Below, in pieces: positions 1,822 to 63,935 of a stretch of DNA of 64,000 nucleotides. A program made the position numbers and the translations under genes. Origin of the DNA: Ruminococcus sp. (GTDB taxonomy: Bacteria; Bacillota; Clostridia; Oscillospirales; Ruminococcaceae); contig JAIDCY010000148.1 in assembly GCA_029055625.1 (NCBI GenBank), forward strand, positions 49,856 to 113,855. The letters are read 5' to 3'. Numbering within the stretch: position 1 is the stretch's first letter; every line of letters begins with the position of its first letter. Below the pieces are notes generated by a model. It saw only the letters and a list, made by a program, of their open reading frames with translations. It had not been told where the DNA came from and ran no database searches.

Positions 1822-3039
1822 TTACAGACTGTTTACGGTGTACATATTATTACCGCCGTTACGCTTTACATTATGCATAACGTTATCCATTTTCAGGAGC
1901 AGGGAACTTACATTCAGGCAGTCGTTAGCGAGGTAGTGATATATACTTCCCGAAGCGGTACACTGTACCATTATTCCCTCTATGGTTACAGTTCCGTTGA
2001 TTGAAGCAAGTATTTTTTCCGCAGTACGTGGTATCTGACTATCCGGTATATCGTCATTGAAAATAAAACAGAACTCATTGCTTGTGATGTTGTAGATTTT
2101 AGCGTTTTCCCCGAACTCATCCGTAAGTCTTTCAGCTATTGCGGAAAGATATTCATCACCGAATTCGTAACCGTACATATCGTTTATCATACGGAAATTA
2201 TCAATATCGAATACCGCAATATTGAAATTGTCAGTTTCAAGACGTTCTGCTAAATCGTTTTCCAGTGCGTAACGGTTCGGCATATCGGTAAGTATATTTT
2301 TCATTGCTATGTCATACATCTTCTGCGTTGAGGTTTCCAGTTTACGTCCGGCGGCGGCAATCTGTCTTTCCTGCATTTCAATTTGCATCATACGGTGTTT
2401 TGTAGCCCTTGCGAGTGAGTGTACAATAAGTTCTGCCACTATCAGTACTATAAAAAGGAATATGAAACCCGTTCCGAAAAACATAAAATTCTGTTTCATA
2501 AGATTTTCCGCATCATTTTTACCGATTTCGAGGGTAGCCATAATCATTTCAACAGCGGCGGTCTGTGTGGGGTGAATTTCCTGTAAATAGATGTCTTTCA
2601 TCTGCTGGTCATCAAGATTTGCGAAAGAGTGTTCAAGGTTCAGGAGTTTGTTATCATACGATTCAACAAGCATTTTTGCGTGATTGTAACGTCTTGTTTC
2701 AAGTTCGGAGTGCTGGAGTTCTTCATACTCTTTCATTGCTTTACGTATTACGTCATAGGAATTATGTATGTTATTTACGCTTGACATAGGGCTTCCGATA
2801 CCGGAGACTATAATAAGTACCTCACGGTTTACATTTAACAGTTCTTCGCTTATAGTGGACATATGCTGTAAAGAGTTCATATTGCGGTCATAGACACGCC
2901 TGCCGTTAAGGAAAACTATTGAACTGTCAACGATATTGATAATCATTATTACAAGTATTACTATATACGCAACTGTAAAGTTTTTCTGCGTTTTCGAGCC
3001 GTTATATACGTTATTTCCGGTATTACTTTTTTTAGACAT
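1822..3039 (-). CDS. Membrane sensor with degenerate GGDEF domain
   Basis: Two TM segments flanking a helical extracellular region, then a GGDEF fold (DMPNRYALENDL, FDIDNFRMINDMYGYEFGDEYL) with the signature replaced by TSNEF. Confidence 0.8.
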   Translation of the reverse strand: MSKKSNTGNNVYNGSKTQKNFTVAYIVILVIMIINIVDSSIVFLNGRRVYDRNMNSLQHMSTISEELLNVNREVLIIVSGIGSPMSSVNNIHNSYDVIRKAMKEYEELQHSELETRRYNHAKMLVESYDNKLLNLEHSFANLDDQQMKDIYLQEIHPTQTAAVEMIMATLEIGKNDAENLMKQNFMFFGTGFIFLFIVLIVAELIVHSLARATKHRMMQIEMQERQIAAAGRKLETSTQKMYDIAMKNILTDMPNRYALENDLAERLETDNFNIAVFDIDNFRMINDMYGYEFGDEYLSAIAERLTDEFGENAKIYNITSNEFCFIFNDDIPDSQIPRTAEKILASINGTVTIEGIMVQCTASGSIYHYLANDCLNVSSLLLKMDNVMHNVKRNGGNNMYTVNSL

Positions 3040-3056: not shown

Positions 3057-4061
3057 TCAGTTCAGCATGGGGTTCATTATAAGTTTTACGTCGCTGTCGT
3101 GTATATTTTCCTTGGTAACGAGAGTTGCTCCGGTATCTATAGAATCGGCTATTGTCTGACCGTCAATGATGTCCTTTGCGTAACGCACACCAAGATAACC
3201 CATATTATACGGATTCTGTACTATAAAGCCGTCGAGTATGTCATCTTCCGTATATTCCTGTGCACTCTTATAACCGTCACCTTTACTGAAAGAGTCGAAA
3301 CCTACTATCTGTATGGTATCCGCTTTGCCGAGTTCTTCCACAGCCATACAAGCCCCGATAGTACCGCCCTGATTGGTAGCGAAAACCGCCTTTAAATCGG
3401 GATAATCGTTAATGAGTTTCAACGTCGCATCTTTTGACTGTTGTATATCACCGTCACCGTTTTCCGTTGCAACGACGTTAAGAACAGGTGCATCACTTTC
3501 TGAGTTGTACTCGTCGAGTTGTTTTATAAAACCGTTTTTGCGTTCGATAGCTGTTGCAGAAGTCGGGGCGTGTGTAATAATGCCTATATCGCCGTTATTA
3601 CCGATAAATTCGGATAATTTCCGTGCGGAAATAGCACCGCCGTAAGTATTGTTTGTGCTGATACACGATTCCCTTACGTCTTCCCTCATATCAGAATCTA
3701 TTATAATTACGCTGATGTTGTTGCTTTTAGCTTTTCTGAGAGCGTCGGCGAGTTCGTCGCTGTCCTGTACGGGAGCTATTACGATAACTTCCGCCTTGTT
3801 TGATATGGCGTTGTTGACATACTTTACCTGCTCTGTAACGTCTTCTTTTTCCGAGGCGTTGTAAGTTATCCTGATGCCCATTTCCTCTCCGGCATCTTCC
3901 GCCCCTTTTCTTGCGGATTGCCAGTATTCGTCACTGCTTTTGCATATTACCGCTATATGATGTTCCGTATTGTCTTTACCGCACCCACCTGTAAGGATAA
4001 GTGAAGCCGTCAGCGTACCGACAGCGATAAATTTTATCAGTTTATTTTTATTTTTTTTCAT
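3057..4061 (-). CDS. Sugar-binding (RbsB-like, Peripla_BP_4) lipoprotein
   Basis: Lipobox LTGGC; IAVICKSSDEYWQSARKGAEDAGEEMG, VIIIDSDM, VFATNQGGTIGACMAVEELG, IVGFDSF. Confidence 0.88.
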   Translation of the reverse strand: MKKNKNKLIKFIAVGTLTASLILTGGCGKDNTEHHIAVICKSSDEYWQSARKGAEDAGEEMGIRITYNASEKEDVTEQVKYVNNAISNKAEVIVIAPVQDSDELADALRKAKSNNISVIIIDSDMREDVRESCISTNNTYGGAISARKLSEFIGNNGDIGIITHAPTSATAIERKNGFIKQLDEYNSESDAPVLNVVATENGDGDIQQSKDATLKLINDYPDLKAVFATNQGGTIGACMAVEELGKADTIQIVGFDSFSKGDGYKSAQEYTEDDILDGFIVQNPYNMGYLGVRYAKDIIDGQTIADSIDTGATLVTKENIHDSDVKLIMNPMLN

Positions 4062-4257
4062 TTCCGTTAAAAACCTCCTTATAAAGTATCCTGACGTTAT
4101 TTATCAGTAATAATTATAGCATATGCAGTGCCGGATTTCAAGATAATTTTCAATAATTTATTTTAAAAAAATCTGTTTTTTTTGTGTTATGCATATACTA
4201 AACGGCTTATTTTTGTGACAAATATAAAAATTTGGTTAAAATCTTTGTTAAGACTTG

Positions 4258-4287
4258 ACTTTTTTGCGGATACGTGTTATACTTCAA
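4258..4287 (+). promoter_or_regulatory. Predicted sigma-A promoter for the LRR-kinase-VWA-PP2C cluster
   Basis: TTGACT - 17 nt - TATACT. Confidence 0.6.
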
Positions 4288-4436: not shown

Positions 4437-5525
4437 ATGTTTTGTGAAAGATGTAGAAATGAAGTCAGCCCTTATGCCGAAGTATGTTTAAAATGTGGAA
4501 CGCCGGTATCAAGAAATGTCGCCGGTTTTGAAAATACTGCTGATATAAAAAGAGCGTTGAAGTCAATGATTACCGAACACGGGCAGGATATAATAAAGGA
4601 TTCTAATAAGTTTGTATCATTACTGCGTGACTATATACCGGAATATGAAAAAGAATGCCGATTATTGCGGAATATGTTGCAGACGGGAATACTTGCCAAT
4701 ATGTTACGTGAGAGTGAACAGCAGGCGATATCGATTATGAAAGCAAGGGAATATATGACATCTGAAATGTTCCTTTCGGAAAATGCAACGGAATTTGTAA
4801 TAGTATGTTTCACGTATATGCTCGGCTGGGAGTATAAACCTAAACTTATTGAAAAACCTAAAAATTCTATGGGACAGTCCGGAAATATGGGTACAATGGG
4901 AGCAGGCGGAATGAACGCTCAGCAACCTAAACCTGTAAGAAAACCCGCACCTATGTTTGAAAAGGTATTCACAAAAGGTGACGCTGGCAAATACAGACTG
5001 AAAGGTACGGTAAGAATACCGGAGGGTTATAACAAACTGGATAGTTTCGCTTTCGACGGTTTCGGCTTCATGAAGAGTATTGAACTTCCTTCTACACTTA
5101 TAACTATAGGTGAATACGCATTTTCAGAATGTAAGAGGCTTAAAAGTGTTGATATACCGGCATCTGTACAGGTCATAAAACTGGGAGCGTTTCAGTCATG
5201 CGGAAAACTTACGGTAGTAAGACTGCCGGACGGTATGTTTGAGATAGAAGACAATACATTTTCTTTCTGTGGCAATCTTGAAATAATAGACGTTCCCGAA
5301 AGTGTAAGCAGTATAGGAAAAGAAGCGTTTTCCGGGTGCGAGAAGTTAAGGAAGCTGTTTCTTTCGGAAAACATAAAGTTTATAGATGACGGAGCTTTTG
5401 CAAACTGCAGGTCACTTGTAATAAAGTGTTATGAAAATTCATACGTACACCGTTACTGTATGGCAAATCATATGAAAGTGGAAACGGTTGCGAAAGGTAC
5501 GCCGTTCAGTAAAATAAATACGTAG
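4437..5525 (+). CDS. Zinc-ribbon + BspA-type leucine-rich-repeat protein
   Basis: N-terminal CERCRNEVSPYAEVCLKCG; LRR_5 repeats (FDGFGFMKSIELPSTLITIGEYAFSECKRLKSVDIPASVQVIKLGAFQSC). ATG at 4437 chosen over 4377 because of upstream aggagg. Confidence 0.85.
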   Translation: MFCERCRNEVSPYAEVCLKCGTPVSRNVAGFENTADIKRALKSMITEHGQDIIKDSNKFVSLLRDYIPEYEKECRLLRNMLQTGILANMLRESEQQAISIMKAREYMTSEMFLSENATEFVIVCFTYMLGWEYKPKLIEKPKNSMGQSGNMGTMGAGGMNAQQPKPVRKPAPMFEKVFTKGDAGKYRLKGTVRIPEGYNKLDSFAFDGFGFMKSIELPSTLITIGEYAFSECKRLKSVDIPASVQVIKLGAFQSCGKLTVVRLPDGMFEIEDNTFSFCGNLEIIDVPESVSSIGKEAFSGCEKLRKLFLSENIKFIDDGAFANCRSLVIKCYENSYVHRYCMANHMKVETVAKGTPFSKINT

Positions 5526-5555
5526 AAAAATAAATCAGGAAAGGAATGAAAATAA

Positions 5556-6899
5556 TTGATAGAATTAAAAATCGGCGAACAGGTTGAAATGGAGTACGGC
5601 GGTTATGCAACTGTCAAAAAGATTCTCGGCAGTGGCGGACAAGGTATAGTATATCTTGTGGACTTCAACGGTATCGACTATGCGTTGAAGTGGTATGACA
5701 TCGACAAGATAAAGAACGCCAGAGCATTCAGAAAGAATATCGAGAACAACATAAAAGACGGTGCACCAAGTGACAAGTTTTTATGGCCAAAGTATCTCAC
5801 GAGGGAAAACGGTACGGGTAACTTCGGATACATAATGGATTTACGCCCACAGGGTTATGATTCGTTTGTGGATATTCTGAATACATACCGTCTTGACATC
5901 GACGAACTGACAGGACGTGCTAATAAAGTATCGGTACAGTTTGCGAGTCTTTCGGCAATGGTTACGGCGGTAATAAACATAGTAAACGCATTCCGGCAGT
6001 TGCACAGAGCAGGTAAAAGCTATCAGGACTTAAACGACGGCGGATTCTTCATAAACGTAAATACCGGTGATATACTCGTATGCGACTGTGATAATATCGC
6101 TCCGGACGGAAGCAACTTCGGTATCGGCGGAAAACCCGGATACATGGCACCGGAAGTAGTAAGAGGTATCGCAAAGCCTAACGTTCAGACAGACAAATAT
6201 TCCCTTGCGGTAGTACTTTTCAAGTTGCTTTTCCGTGGAGACCCTATGGAAGGGGAAAAGGTTGTAAAAGATGTATGCCTTACGGAAACATCTGAATTAA
6301 AACATTACGGACAGCAGGCGGTGTTTGTTTATGACCCCGACGATACTTCAAACCGTCCCGTGCGTGGCATACACGATAACGTAATAAAGTTCTGGCGGAT
6401 ATATCCGGCATACGTGAGAGATGCGTTTATACGTTCGTTCACAACCGGTATCAGAGAACCTAACAAACGTATTATAGAAAACGAATGGCAGAAATTATTT
6501 ATAAGACTGCGTTCAGAGATACTGATTTGTACGTGTGGCAGGGCAAATTTCACGTCAATGTTTGAAAAGATAGGAGATACAATTTTCAGATGCCCGAAAT
6601 GTGGTTCAGAGTATGTAAGCCTTGCGTTCAGTAGCAGGGATTACAGAATACCATTATATGTAGGCAGTAAGTTTTATGAGTGCGAGATAAACCCACGTTC
6701 AGACGATTTTCAGACGGTAGCCGGTGAACTGGTAGAGAATAAGTTAAAGCCGGGTATGTTAGGAATAAAGAACAGTTCCGGCAGAACGTGGCGTGTAAAG
6801 ATGCCCGACGGTATTTTTTACGACATCGCACCCGGAAAAGGTTTCCCGTTATGGAAAGGTCTGAAAATTGATTTCGGTGATGTAAATGCACATATATAA
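5556..6899 (+). CDS. Protein-kinase-like protein with C-terminal zinc ribbon (TerY-P-type)
   Basis: Gly loop LGSGGQGIVYLV, ALKWY, YQDLNDGGFFIN, CDCDN, APEVVRG; C-terminal CTCG...CPKCGSEY. TTG start. Confidence 0.85.
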   Translation: MIELKIGEQVEMEYGGYATVKKILGSGGQGIVYLVDFNGIDYALKWYDIDKIKNARAFRKNIENNIKDGAPSDKFLWPKYLTRENGTGNFGYIMDLRPQGYDSFVDILNTYRLDIDELTGRANKVSVQFASLSAMVTAVINIVNAFRQLHRAGKSYQDLNDGGFFINVNTGDILVCDCDNIAPDGSNFGIGGKPGYMAPEVVRGIAKPNVQTDKYSLAVVLFKLLFRGDPMEGEKVVKDVCLTETSELKHYGQQAVFVYDPDDTSNRPVRGIHDNVIKFWRIYPAYVRDAFIRSFTTGIREPNKRIIENEWQKLFIRLRSEILICTCGRANFTSMFEKIGDTIFRCPKCGSEYVSLAFSSRDYRIPLYVGSKFYECEINPRSDDFQTVAGELVENKLKPGMLGIKNSSGRTWRVKMPDGIFYDIAPGKGFPLWKGLKIDFGDVNAHI

Positions 6900-6954
6900 A
6901 ACAGGAAATTTTAACAGGTGGTTCACAATGGAGAGGAAAGGGAGTATTTAATTT

Positions 6955-7740
6955 ATGAATGAAAATTTTGATAATATGCTTGATTTTGATGACGACGACC
7001 CGTTAAGTGCAACGAGTGTATCTAAAAAAAGCCTTGTGATATTTTTTCTTATAGATACGTCCGGAAGCATGAAGGGTACAAAAATGGGTGAATTGAATAC
7101 CGTTATGGAAGAGCTGATACCGGAGATACGCAGAGTGGGTGAAGCGGATACGGATGTAAAAATAGCCGTGCTTACGTTCTCAAACAGTGTAATGTGGATG
7201 TATTCCGAACCGGTTTCAATAGAAGATTTTGAATGGACACGTTTAAGAGCCGACGGCGTAACGAGTATGGGTGAGGCATTCAAGGAATTATCAATCAGAA
7301 TGTCAAGAAATAGTTTTCTCAGTTCACCGTCACTGTCATTTGCTCCGGTAATGTTCCTCATGACTGACGGCTACCCCTCCGACGACTACAAGGCAGGTCT
7401 TGAAGCGTTGCAGAAGAACAGCTGGTATAAGTTCGGACTTAAAGCGGCGTTAGGAATCGGCAAAGAAGCCAATGACGATATGCTGGCGGAATTCACCGGC
7501 ACGAAAGACACGGTGGTGCACGCATACTCCGGCGGACAGCTTGCACAGATGATAAAAGTTGTTGCGGTTACGTCTTCACAGATAGGAAGTAAGAGTATGA
7601 CCCTCGCCGACGATACAAGCCACGAACTCAGTGCACAGGACGTTTACGCAGCTAAACAGAAGATGCTGGGACAACAGATACAAGACCTTGTAAAATCGCA
7701 GGATTATCCGGATTCCGTACCTTTCGACTCAGGCTGGTAA
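6955..7740 (+). CDS. VWA domain protein (TerY-like)
   Basis: MIDAS FLIDTSGSMKGTKMGELN; VAVLTFSN-like IAVLTFSNSV, LMTDGYPSDDY. Confidence 0.9.
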   Translation: MNENFDNMLDFDDDDPLSATSVSKKSLVIFFLIDTSGSMKGTKMGELNTVMEELIPEIRRVGEADTDVKIAVLTFSNSVMWMYSEPVSIEDFEWTRLRADGVTSMGEAFKELSIRMSRNSFLSSPSLSFAPVMFLMTDGYPSDDYKAGLEALQKNSWYKFGLKAALGIGKEANDDMLAEFTGTKDTVVHAYSGGQLAQMIKVVAVTSSQIGSKSMTLADDTSHELSAQDVYAAKQKMLGQQIQDLVKSQDYPDSVPFDSGW

Positions 7741-7772
7741 TAAGTCTGCTGACCAAAAGGAGTTGCTTATAA

Positions 7773-8753
7773 ATGTTTAATGGTTTTTCGCATACCGTCA
7801 TAGGAGCAAGCCACATTACAAGCGGTACTGTCTGTCAGGATTCGTCAGTATTCAGGATATATGAAAATTACAGTATCGCTATAGTTGCAGACGGTCACGG
7901 AAGTAAGAAGCATTTCCGGAGTGATAAAGGCTCAGAAATGGCGGTAAAGGCGGCACTTGATGCGGTCAGTGCATTTTATAAGAATCCGGAAGCGTTCGAG
8001 GAAAGTTTTATGAATGACCCTGACGGAGTAATAAAGAAAATAGAGAAGAATATAATATCACGGTGGAACAGACTTGTAATACATCATTATATACGAAACC
8101 CCTATACTGATAAAGAAAGGTCAAAATTCACTGAAAAGGAGTTCCGGCGTATAAAAGTAGAAACGGTATACGGTACAACGTTGATAGTGGCGGTAATGGG
8201 CAGAAAGTTTACATTCGGTACGCAGATAGGCGACGGAAGTCTTGTAATAATATGTGAAGATGCATTTGCTGAAATGCCGATTGCATACGAGGAGAGCGCA
8301 CCGGCAAATATAACAGCTTCAATGTGTAACAGTCAGGCAATAAATCATTTTCACAGTTTTTACGCAATAGAGGATAAGCCTATAGCTGTATTTGTTTCAA
8401 CGGACGGTTTATATACATCATTCAGGAGTGATGAGGATTTTCTTGACTATCACAGTATACTTGCGAATCAGCTTGTAAAAATAGACGCATTCAGTCCGTC
8501 GATACGGAAAAACCTGTCTAAGAGGGCACAGAGCGGTACACAGGACGATACATCATTAGCGTGTGTGTTCGACTGCGAGATGTTGGCGGAGAAACTCGAA
8601 GACCTCACGGAGCAGGTAGAAGTAAACAAGATACACGCATCAATACGTAAGGCGGAGCATAAAGCACGTATGGAGAAACAAAGGCTTAAAAATTCCATGA
8701 ATATCTCACATTATGAGACAGAAGAAAATCTGTTCCGACAGGACAGTGAATAA
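7773..8753 (+). CDS. PP2C-family serine/threonine phosphatase
   Basis: IVADGHGSKKH, IGDGSLVII, STDGLYTSF, QDDTSLACVF. Confidence 0.9.
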   Translation: MFNGFSHTVIGASHITSGTVCQDSSVFRIYENYSIAIVADGHGSKKHFRSDKGSEMAVKAALDAVSAFYKNPEAFEESFMNDPDGVIKKIEKNIISRWNRLVIHHYIRNPYTDKERSKFTEKEFRRIKVETVYGTTLIVAVMGRKFTFGTQIGDGSLVIICEDAFAEMPIAYEESAPANITASMCNSQAINHFHSFYAIEDKPIAVFVSTDGLYTSFRSDEDFLDYHSILANQLVKIDAFSPSIRKNLSKRAQSGTQDDTSLACVFDCEMLAEKLEDLTEQVEVNKIHASIRKAEHKARMEKQRLKNSMNISHYETEENLFRQDSE

Positions 8754-8756
8754 ATA

Positions 8757-8843
8757 ATGGAAAACAAATCGAATAAGAAGAATATACCGGTTCTGATAGT
8801 TTGTGTGATACTGTTTATAATGGTATTCATACTGCAGAAATAG
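8757..8843 (+). CDS. Small single-span membrane peptide, 28 aa (not in supplied ORF track)
   Basis: MENKSNKKNIPVLIVCVILFIMVFILQK*, begins 3 nt after the PP2C stop; basic N-terminus then one hydrophobic helix. Confidence 0.5.
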   Translation: MENKSNKKNIPVLIVCVILFIMVFILQK

Positions 8844-8975
8844 TATCAAATATCCGGCTTACAGGCTTTACAGGTATACTCTCAAAGTTTCACGTAATGA
8901 TTTCTGTTATACTCATACTGACAAGCAGAAACGACAGAATGCATGATGAACTTATAGATAATATAAATATTAAGG

Positions 8976-9010
8976 TTTCACGTTTCCGGTAAGGAGGCGT
9001 GAAATTTTTT
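8976..9010 (+). terminator. Predicted terminator
   Basis: TTTCACGtttccggtaaggaggCGTGAAAtttttt. Confidence 0.7.
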
Positions 9011-9033: not shown

Positions 9034-9062
9034 TTGACAAATCTTTTATAATGCAGTATAAT
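9034..9062 (+). promoter_or_regulatory. Predicted sigma-A promoter for deaminase-like gene
   Basis: TTGACA - 17 nt - TATAAT. Confidence 0.65.
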
Positions 9063-9151: not shown

Positions 9152-10300
9152 GTGGAATTAGTTGAGTTGTACAACAAGGCACTTTTACTTGTTGAGGAAG
9201 TAAAGAATTTCAGAAGTCAGACCACAGAAAAAAATTCGACCCTCTGCATAGTAGTTACCAATACAGGCAATATTTATGCAGGTGTAACAGGAATAAGGAT
9301 AAGTAACGGAACAGTGACAGAAGCGTGTTCTGAATATAATGCGTTGATGTCGATGATATGCGACGGCATAGTATCTGTCAGACAGATGATGACGATATCA
9401 TGCAGTGATATGACGGTTTGCAAACCGTGTAGCGAGGGTATAGATATACTTTGCAGGATAAGTGAAGAAAATAATCAGTGTGAAGTAGCGGTATCTGTAA
9501 GCGAGGCGGTTCGGGTATGCGAACTTGACGGATATATTACAGAAGACGATAAAACCGCTGAACCGGAATATAAACCAACTGCCACATTTGAAGAAGTTCC
9601 TGCATTTTCTGAACAACCGGTAAGTGATACGTTCAGTTTTGAAGAGAAGTTCGGCTTTGATTTCGACGATATACCCGAAGAACCGGCAACACCTGTACAG
9701 ACTTTACCGGAAGAAAAACCTCAGGAAATGCCGTTCACAGAGCAGTCAGTAATGCCACAGGGTATGAATCCACCGTTTATACAACAGGATAACATACAGA
9801 ATAATCCGCCACAGTATCAGGGTTATCCATACCCACAACAGAATCCGTATCAGCAGAATAATATGAATCCGCAGTTTGTACAGCCGGATAACATACAGAA
9901 TTATCCGTCACAGAATTATCAGCAGTACGGACAGTCGGTAAATCAGGGAAGTTTTCCGTATAATCCTCAACCATATCCGCAGAACAGCTTACAAAGTCAG
10001 CCACTCAGTAACCTCTCACCGCACCAGTCCGCACCTTACGTATCGCATCACTATATGAGCAGTACCGGTTCAGTGCCGTTAGGTTCTGTACCTCTTTCAG
10101 GTGAAGGAAAATCGAAGTTCAGACAGCGTTTAAGTAAATTTATGGGTGAAGATAATCACGTTTCAACACCTGATCCGACGGTCAGACCAACTGAAGAAAG
10201 TCTGACAAAGGAAGAGTTGAAAAGAATGGCACGTGATAAAAAGAAAATGGCGAAAGTCAACGCAGAGTTTAAAAAGCGTATGAAAGACCTTGGATATTGA
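9152..10300 (+). CDS. Cytidine-deaminase-like domain with Q/N/P/Y-rich linker and basic C-terminus
   Basis: TEACSEYNALMSMI (CxE) and VCKPCSEGIDIL (CxxC) with CDA-like spacing; long low-complexity segment. GTG start. Confidence 0.6.
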   Translation: MELVELYNKALLLVEEVKNFRSQTTEKNSTLCIVVTNTGNIYAGVTGIRISNGTVTEACSEYNALMSMICDGIVSVRQMMTISCSDMTVCKPCSEGIDILCRISEENNQCEVAVSVSEAVRVCELDGYITEDDKTAEPEYKPTATFEEVPAFSEQPVSDTFSFEEKFGFDFDDIPEEPATPVQTLPEEKPQEMPFTEQSVMPQGMNPPFIQQDNIQNNPPQYQGYPYPQQNPYQQNNMNPQFVQPDNIQNYPSQNYQQYGQSVNQGSFPYNPQPYPQNSLQSQPLSNLSPHQSAPYVSHHYMSSTGSVPLGSVPLSGEGKSKFRQRLSKFMGEDNHVSTPDPTVRPTEESLTKEELKRMARDKKKMAKVNAEFKKRMKDLGY

Positions 10301-63724: not shown

Positions 63725-63764
63725 CACCATATGATATAATAGAAATACTGGCATACAGAAATAT

Positions 63765-63928
63765 GCGATAGCACTCCATCATTATATGATGACAGTCAAA
63801 GACCTGTTAAGTCAGTGACCAGAACTGAATTTACCGGAAACAGTTCTTCGGCGGTTTCACCTTTCGCTGAACATCATGGGACTGGTTATCCGATATTCAG
63901 GTAATTATTTCAACCGCACCTCTACCTT
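63765..63928 (-). promoter_or_regulatory. Lysine riboswitch (L box) upstream of asd
   Basis: Minus strand AAGGTAGAGGTGCGG...AGCGAAAGGTGAAACCGCCGAAG...GGTCACTGACT...TGGAGTGCTATCGC matches the lysine riboswitch core. Confidence 0.96.
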
Positions 63929-63935
63929 GAATATA

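Follow-up and report, generated by a model that had tools for sequence, protein, structure and literature searches.

A TerY-P-type kinase, VWA, and PP2C locus of Ruminococcus with a candidate leucine-rich repeat sensor that carries a helical domain

Introduction

A 64,000-nt stretch from a gut Ruminococcus sp. (assembly GCA_029055625.1, contig JAIDCY010000148.1, positions 49,856 to 113,855 of the forward strand), referred to here as the window, carries at 4437-8843 a run of genes for a leucine-rich repeat (LRR) protein, a Ser/Thr kinase, a VWA protein, and a PP2C phosphatase. An earlier note, made from the sequence alone, had likened the last three to the TerY-P signalling triad and had regarded the LRR gene at the head of the run, and a tiny membrane peptide at its end, as additions to it. 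The question raised by this locus is whether the LRR protein belongs to the triad and, if so, in what role. The reading favoured here, with a rough probability of 55%, is that of a vertically kept TerY-P-type phospho-switch with its own LRR sensor or adaptor, which would be docked through a helical domain named hel.

Organization of the locus

The locus consists of five consecutive frames on the same strand, found exactly at the coordinates of the earlier note, with gaps of 30, 55, 32, and 3 nt between them and a ribosome-binding-like sequence upstream of most of the starts. The gene types are confirmed by significant Pfam matches to LRR_5, Pkinase, VWA, and PP2C_2. The genes and domains of the module are the following, where AF2 is an AlphaFold2 model with its predicted local distance difference test score (pLDDT) and MIDAS is the metal ion-dependent adhesion site:

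4437-5525, plus strand: hel-LRR protein P0001, 362 aa, with a zinc ribbon, a helical domain, a linker, and BspA-type LRRs (Pfam; orthologues adjoining the kinase)
4527-4832, plus strand: hel domain of ~100 aa, all-helical (53-member alignment; AF2 pLDDT 95)
5034-5417, plus strand: BspA-type LRR region, aa 200-327 of P0001 (Pfam LRR_5)
5556-6899, plus strand: TerY-P-type Ser/Thr kinase P0002, 447 aa, TTG start (Pkinase; AF2; ter-plasmid profile match)
6528-6602, plus strand: kinase zinc ribbon, C325, C327, C346, and C349 (Cys conservation in 102 relatives)
6603-6896, plus strand: kinase C-terminal beta-strand-rich domain (AF2 strands)
6955-7740, plus strand: TerY-like VWA protein P0003 with intact MIDAS (Pfam VWA; IncHI2 TerY profile match)
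7773-8753, plus strand: PP2C phosphatase P0004 (Pfam PP2C_2; ADGHGS, GDG, STDG, and QDDTS motifs)

The TerY-P triad

By its published definition (PMC11090510), TerY-P combines a Ser/Thr kinase that carries a zinc ribbon at its C-terminus with a PP2C-like enzyme and a TerY-like VWA protein, and all three components, including the MIDAS of the VWA protein and the zinc ribbon of the kinase, are present at the window locus. Family profiles matched proteins of the IncHI2 ter operon at 2e-42 for the kinase, 1.7e-32 for VWA, and 1e-16 for PP2C. A tblastn search with the kinase returned more than 1,700 plasmid records, chiefly from Klebsiella, Escherichia, and Salmonella, and in the one IncHI2 plasmid record that was opened the kinase match lies within the ter operon, adjoining terW, TerD-family, VWA, and PP2C genes. 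Because the kinase, VWA, and PP2C each have a homologue in the IncHI2 ter operon, the predicted TerY-P type of the triad, as proposed in the earlier note, is supported by profile matches as well as by composition; TerY-P is meant here in the broad sense, with no claim to a defence-system subtype. The PADLOC check that the earlier note had suggested gave no TerY-P call: P0003 and P0004 were unmatched and P0002 had only generic kinase matches. The PADLOC library does contain a TerY model, and its negative result is taken as a limit of its models because the direct comparison with a ter plasmid was positive. No TerD, McrBC, restriction, or nuclease gene was seen at the window locus, whose flanks were read by ORF and in part scanned by profile; linkage to ter or DNA-processing genes is treated here as a common association that lies outside the definition of the triad.

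The VWA protein P0003 (Pfam VWA, 6.1e-9) has every MIDAS residue, with DTSGS at aa 34, Thr103, and the Asp of MTDG at 136, so that its site is intact as first described. P0004 matches PP2C_2 at 1.4e-32 and features the metal-binding Asp motifs.

The kinase P0002 (Pfam Pkinase, 3.1e-10) is translated from a TTG at 5556, which corrects the start given previously. It features the LGSGGQG loop, a VAIK-like Lys45, Asp158 within YQDLN, D177-C-D179-N, and an APE motif. The glycine loop, the DCDN sequence, and the zinc ribbon of the earlier description all stood, but its "QDL...N" did not: the catalytic loop reads YQDLNDGGFF and the Mg-binding Asn of HRDxxxxN is replaced by Gly163, a substitution common to 39 of 102 relatives. 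In the zinc ribbon C325, C327, and C349 are invariant in these 102 proteins, and the position of C346 is Cys in 88. The AF2 model (pLDDT 93) covers the kinase domain, which has kinase-fold matches in the PDB, and the beta-strand-rich C-terminal domain, which gave no PDB sequence match. An FHA-like identity for the latter, an idea formed by eye, was supported neither by the PDB profile search nor by Pfam.

The first gene and the hel domain

The zinc ribbon and the BspA-type LRRs that had been noticed in the first gene were both recovered. The zinc ribbon of P0001 has a CxxC-10-CxxC arrangement at aa 3-20 and is sub-threshold in Pfam, whereas the repeats match LRR_5 at 7.6e-34. Between them, at aa ~31-131, is a ~100-aa domain that had been overlooked, hel. 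The AF2 model of hel is all-helical, with seven helices, and non-enzymatic. The alignment used for family searches has 53 members; no Pfam family for hel was found among the matches of these members, no PDB sequence match was obtained, and a fold search against PDB and viral structures returned nothing below E = 1. The top fold match by TM-score (0.5) was the XerA recombinase, which was rejected as not significant. Literature text searches, from which the full text of the 2012 TerY-P paper was missing, yielded no earlier mention of the domain.

An iterated profile search with hel detected related domains in 87 open reading frames (ORFs) around kinase loci, and hel proteins flank triads in Bacillota, Spirochaetota, and Bacteroidota. 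The C-terminal modules joined to hel are exchanged from locus to locus and comprise LRR_5, WG, Sel1, TPR, MORN, RCC1-like, ankyrin, formylglycine-generating enzyme (FGE)-sulfatase-like, and DEAD helicase modules; some hel proteins carry helicase C-terminal parts that are RecQ- and UvrD-like, with helicase-hel fusions in loci L010 and L172. Most of these modules are binding repeats and not enzymes; LRR, WG, Sel1, and TPR repeats are typical binding scaffolds. Roughly one hel protein in three has a CxxC..CxxC pair within the first 60 residues.

Several individual loci illustrate this variety. At L154:9027-10685 and L156:9032-10606, in the same genus, hel is fused to Sel1-like repeats downstream of a zinc-ribbon LRR_5-type protein. 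At L011:3776-17340, from another family, an FtsK/EssC-like ATPase, two small WXG100-like proteins, and a possible cysteine-protease-like protein (names read from sequence) come ahead of a triad relative, and several hel proteins, one of them fused to Sel1-like repeats, come after it. The Prevotella plasmid pE2-28 (L162) encodes a TerY-C protein, the kinase, VWA, and PP2C, followed by a pair of ORFs with hel domains, the latter of which is annotated as formylglycine-generating-enzyme-like.

Linkage of hel to the triad

In a survey of 80 independently fetched kinase loci, 57 had hel-bearing ORFs, 81 in all. The hel gene directly precedes the kinase in 26 loci and directly follows PP2C in 27, with one or the other arrangement in 49 of 79. 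An even sample of 349 genomes of the phylum was scanned with the kinase and hel profiles. The kinase was found in four genomes, in each of which hel and the triad share an operon, and hel was found in one of the 345 genomes without the kinase. The Fisher p-value for this co-occurrence is 8e-9, or 6e-7 when the genome of the window is left out, and is to be read as indicative because some sampled genomes may have contributed to the profiles.

Within the genus the kinase is present in 51 of 60 genomes and hel in 50 of those 51, as against none of the other nine. Among kinase copies with 67% identity or more, 46 of 49 have hel at a distance of 662-743 nt on their 5' side, and one of the three remaining copies is at a contig end. 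In the order sample, the 13 other genomes of the family all gave no kinase. The genus synteny, the phylum sample, and the Fisher test together reject chance adjacency of the LRR gene, which recurs beside the kinase across many loci and is thus a real variant component, as the earlier note had supposed. The neighbourhood survey suggested there gave a split outcome: the LRR gene co-occurs with the triad, and the small membrane gene proved to be the remnant of a transmembrane (TM)-GGDEF gene that is intact in relatives. On the kinase tree, obtained by a short search with SH-like approximate likelihood-ratio test (SH-aLRT) support only, the hel-LRR state requires four or more changes on branches with good support, which implies that the recognition module has been gained or lost repeatedly.

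Proposed mechanism

In the favoured reading, the kinase P0002 and the phosphatase P0004 would control how far partner proteins are phosphorylated, with the VWA protein P0003 as a Mg-dependent (MIDAS) peptide-binding scaffold. P0001 would be a cytosolic adaptor whose LRR face recognises a protein or a cell-surface-derived cue. The hel domain would dock P0001 onto the core formed by kinase, VWA, and PP2C, and the balance between kinase and phosphatase would shift once a ligand is bound. In other bacteria, hel may plug WG, Sel1, TPR, MORN, RCC1, ankyrin, FGE, or helicase modules into the same core. The observations themselves establish which genes are present, their homology to TerY-P, the linkage of hel to the triad, and the swapping of C-terminal modules; from these we infer docking, ligand sensing, this direction of signalling, and a stress cue as the input.

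The signal could also run the other way. The hel-LRR protein may be the output. It would be phosphorylated as a substrate or effector, and its LRRs would work on other proteins or on the envelope, while the triad would use its zinc ribbon to sense metal or stress. TerY-P has been proposed to be a metal-sensing switch (Anantharaman 2012, as cited in PMC11090510), and several hel proteins have enzyme-like or helicase C-terminal parts, which suit such a role. The predominance of binding repeats among the C-terminal modules points away from it. Additionally, a signal peptide is not visible in the sequence of P0001, whose N-terminal end is the zinc ribbon, which makes an envelope-acting output unlikely. 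The output role as a whole is judged improbable.

Several points nevertheless weigh against a docked sensor. The hel proteins as substrates or effectors would fit the same linkage data. A hel gene is missing from the fetched flank of 23 of the 80 survey loci, although some of these lie at the end of a contig or belong to the paralogue type. The domain also occurs away from triads, as Sel1-hel in L154 and L156 and in ALGX-like form in L149, L150-L152, and L173, which weakens the case for docking specific to TerY-P. Finally, P0002 could, to judge from its missing loop Asn, be a weak kinase or a pseudokinase.

Comparison with known systems

The locus has the same three components as TerY-P (Anantharaman et al. 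2012), the IncHI2 ter operons, and the defence form of Gao et al. 2020, and all three are homologous by profile to the IncHI2 ter-operon proteins. It differs in having no ter or DNA-processing genes, in its extra hel-LRR first gene, and in gene order, which is kinase-VWA-PP2C in the window and VWA-PP2C-kinase in TerY-P. Kaur et al. 2020 (PMC7159879) described sets of a kinase (with zinc ribbon and beta-rich domain), PP2C, and vWA in GAP1-N2 GTPase-centric conflict systems restricted to actinobacteria. The three partners and the kinase-zinc ribbon-beta domain architecture are the same, but GTPase and GAP1 genes were not noticed beside the window locus and the phyla differ.

The effector-associated domains (EADs) of PMC7159879 resemble hel in being small, non-enzymatic, and mostly helical domains with many partners, present in several copies per locus by a core signalling system. 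The hallmark of EADs is a copy on a core component, and hel was not detected on the kinase, VWA, or PP2C in the surveyed loci. No EAD was found among the Pfam matches of the 53 hel members, and an EAD1 search of the genome of the window gave no match, as it also did in control genomes. Since both a core-component copy and an EAD sequence match are lacking, membership is not claimed; hel may work in the way that EADs do without being one of their family.

CoCoNuT systems of type II and III-A carry TerY-P triads, and some extended loci include LRR or Hsp70-like proteins (PMC11090510). None of the CoCoNuT genes CnuB/CnuC (McrB/McrC), CnuH/CnuE, or HEPN was seen on reading the flanking ORFs of the window locus, with a profile scan covering part of the flanks. 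P0001 has LRR_5 repeats in common with the BspA family; however, BspA proteins are secreted to the surface, whereas in P0001 a zinc ribbon and a helical domain form the N-terminal part.

Neighbouring genes

The features around the module are the following:

4255-4283, plus strand: putative promoter TTGACT-17-TATACT with extended -10 (consensus scan 10/12; pattern match only)
8757-8992, plus strand: decayed TM-GGDEF gene remnant (tblastn to the intact orthologue, L013:13226-14146)
9152-10300, plus strand: conserved neighbour P0006, with a cytidine-deaminase-like N-terminus and a Pro/Gln-rich tail (follows PP2C in most genus loci)
3057-4061, minus strand: conserved divergent neighbour, a periplasmic binding lipoprotein (Pfam Peripla_BP_4; kept in genus loci)
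1822-3039, minus strand: conserved divergent neighbour, a membrane GGDEF protein (Pfam GGDEF 2.7e-21; kept in genus loci)

The last frame of the run had been taken for a gene encoding a tiny membrane peptide. Relatives have after PP2C an intact TM-GGDEF protein of ~306 aa (Pfam GGDEF, 2.1e-37), which starts almost as the 28-residue peptide of the window does (MENKSNKKNIPVLIVCVILF...). The window frame, 8757-8843, reaches a stop codon after its first membrane segment, and beyond it lie frame-shifted, internally deleted fragments to about 8992. As the frame is intact in relatives and decayed in the window, the peptide is what is left of the start of a disrupted TM-GGDEF gene; with intact orthologues in sister species, it was rejected as a separate component of the module.

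These GGDEF genes bring up cyclic di-GMP (c-di-GMP)-linked regulation, in which the flanking GGDEF genes, the periplasmic binding protein, and the triad would form one surface- or nutrient-sensing circuit. The divergent membrane GGDEF protein and binding lipoprotein are indeed conserved neighbours, and relatives add the second TM-GGDEF gene after PP2C. That second gene, however, is decayed in the window, and several relatives lack it or have it in altered form. The GGDEF motifs have also degenerated, to SNEF in the window copy and to TGDEF or SGDEF in relatives, and a GGDEF partner was not seen outside the genus. Such a circuit is considered highly unlikely.

P0006 is probably its own transcription unit; a consensus scan places a perfect consensus promoter at 9034-9062, ahead of the gene. 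An orthologue matches PF00383 at 2.8e-5 in Pfam, and a match to PDB entry 1r5t was obtained at E = 0.026. Relatives of P0006 carry CxE ... PCxxC, and the zinc site looks degraded in the window copy because PCSEG replaces PCxxC. Far from the locus, at 63761-63932 on the minus strand, the window has a lysine riboswitch aptamer (Rfam RF00168, 3e-25).

Locus stability and genome context

The upstream periplasmic binding protein and GGDEF genes and the downstream P0006 recur at most of the genus loci examined, and in the closest species trmB, pyrC, pyrF, and carA follow too (gene names read from translations). Conservation is strong for the kinase and VWA, moderate for PP2C and the LRRs, and weak for the P0001 linker and P0006. 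The module looks as though it has been kept vertically, mostly at one chromosomal neighbourhood in the genus. A mostly fixed chromosomal locus makes a physiological or envelope stress response more likely than a mobile defence island.

The same genome has related genes elsewhere. At L008 (contig C106), a kinase paralogue whose catalytic Asp is changed to Gly is found with PP2C, and no VWA gene was found there. This run includes ManA-like, TerD (2e-51), AIM24-like, and ECF sigma genes and is divergent from a Pnkp/Hen1 RNA-repair pair; the paralogue is placed within the genus hel-LRR clade on the kinase tree. At L009 (contig C104), a third triad, VWA-PP2C-kinase, adjoins genes for the restriction and methylation subunits of a type I system. 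On contigs other than that of the window this genome has six TerD genes, one adjoining the kinase and PP2C paralogue; the five further genes form two clusters (contigs C67 and C25), and ter-type genes are therefore also present elsewhere in the genome. Among 2.9 million viral contigs, five had kinase relatives, one of them with hel, and one phage record had a VWA match only.

These findings bear on an anti-phage variant of TerY-P, in which the LRRs would sense some component of a phage, and the switch of kinase and phosphatase would in turn trigger shutdown or a distant effector. TerY-P systems are reported to protect against T7-like phages (Gao 2020, as summarized in PMC7699616) and accompany the CoCoNuT type II/III-A loci (PMC11090510). 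The restriction-modification neighbours of the L009 triad, the helicase-hel fusions of L010 and L172, and the kinase relatives on five viral contigs agree with a defence role. The window locus itself, however, has no nuclease or restriction gene, lies between metabolic genes, and keeps a similar position across many species. PADLOC made no call, and such conservation of sequence and gene order is not what a fast-turnover defence gene would be expected to show. An antiviral role is possible by analogy with the published TerY-P work and the helicase-hel relatives, to which the window locus adds nothing, and the anti-phage variant is regarded as unlikely here.

Biological significance

More than a decade has passed since TerY-P switches were recognized in sequence data, and we know of no established input for them. 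Under the reading of a phospho-switch with its own docked LRR sensor or adaptor, hel may represent an unnamed class of docking domains and TerY-P triads may be a general plug-in receptor platform in bacteria, in which a single conserved core takes up exchangeable cytosolic recognition proteins (LRR, WG, Sel1, TPR, MORN, RCC1, and ankyrin), a generalization put forward tentatively and at somewhat less than even odds. If true, the hel-linked repeat proteins would be candidates for the input arm of TerY-P and a sequence handle for finding such loci, and TerY-P sensing would become directly testable, module by module.

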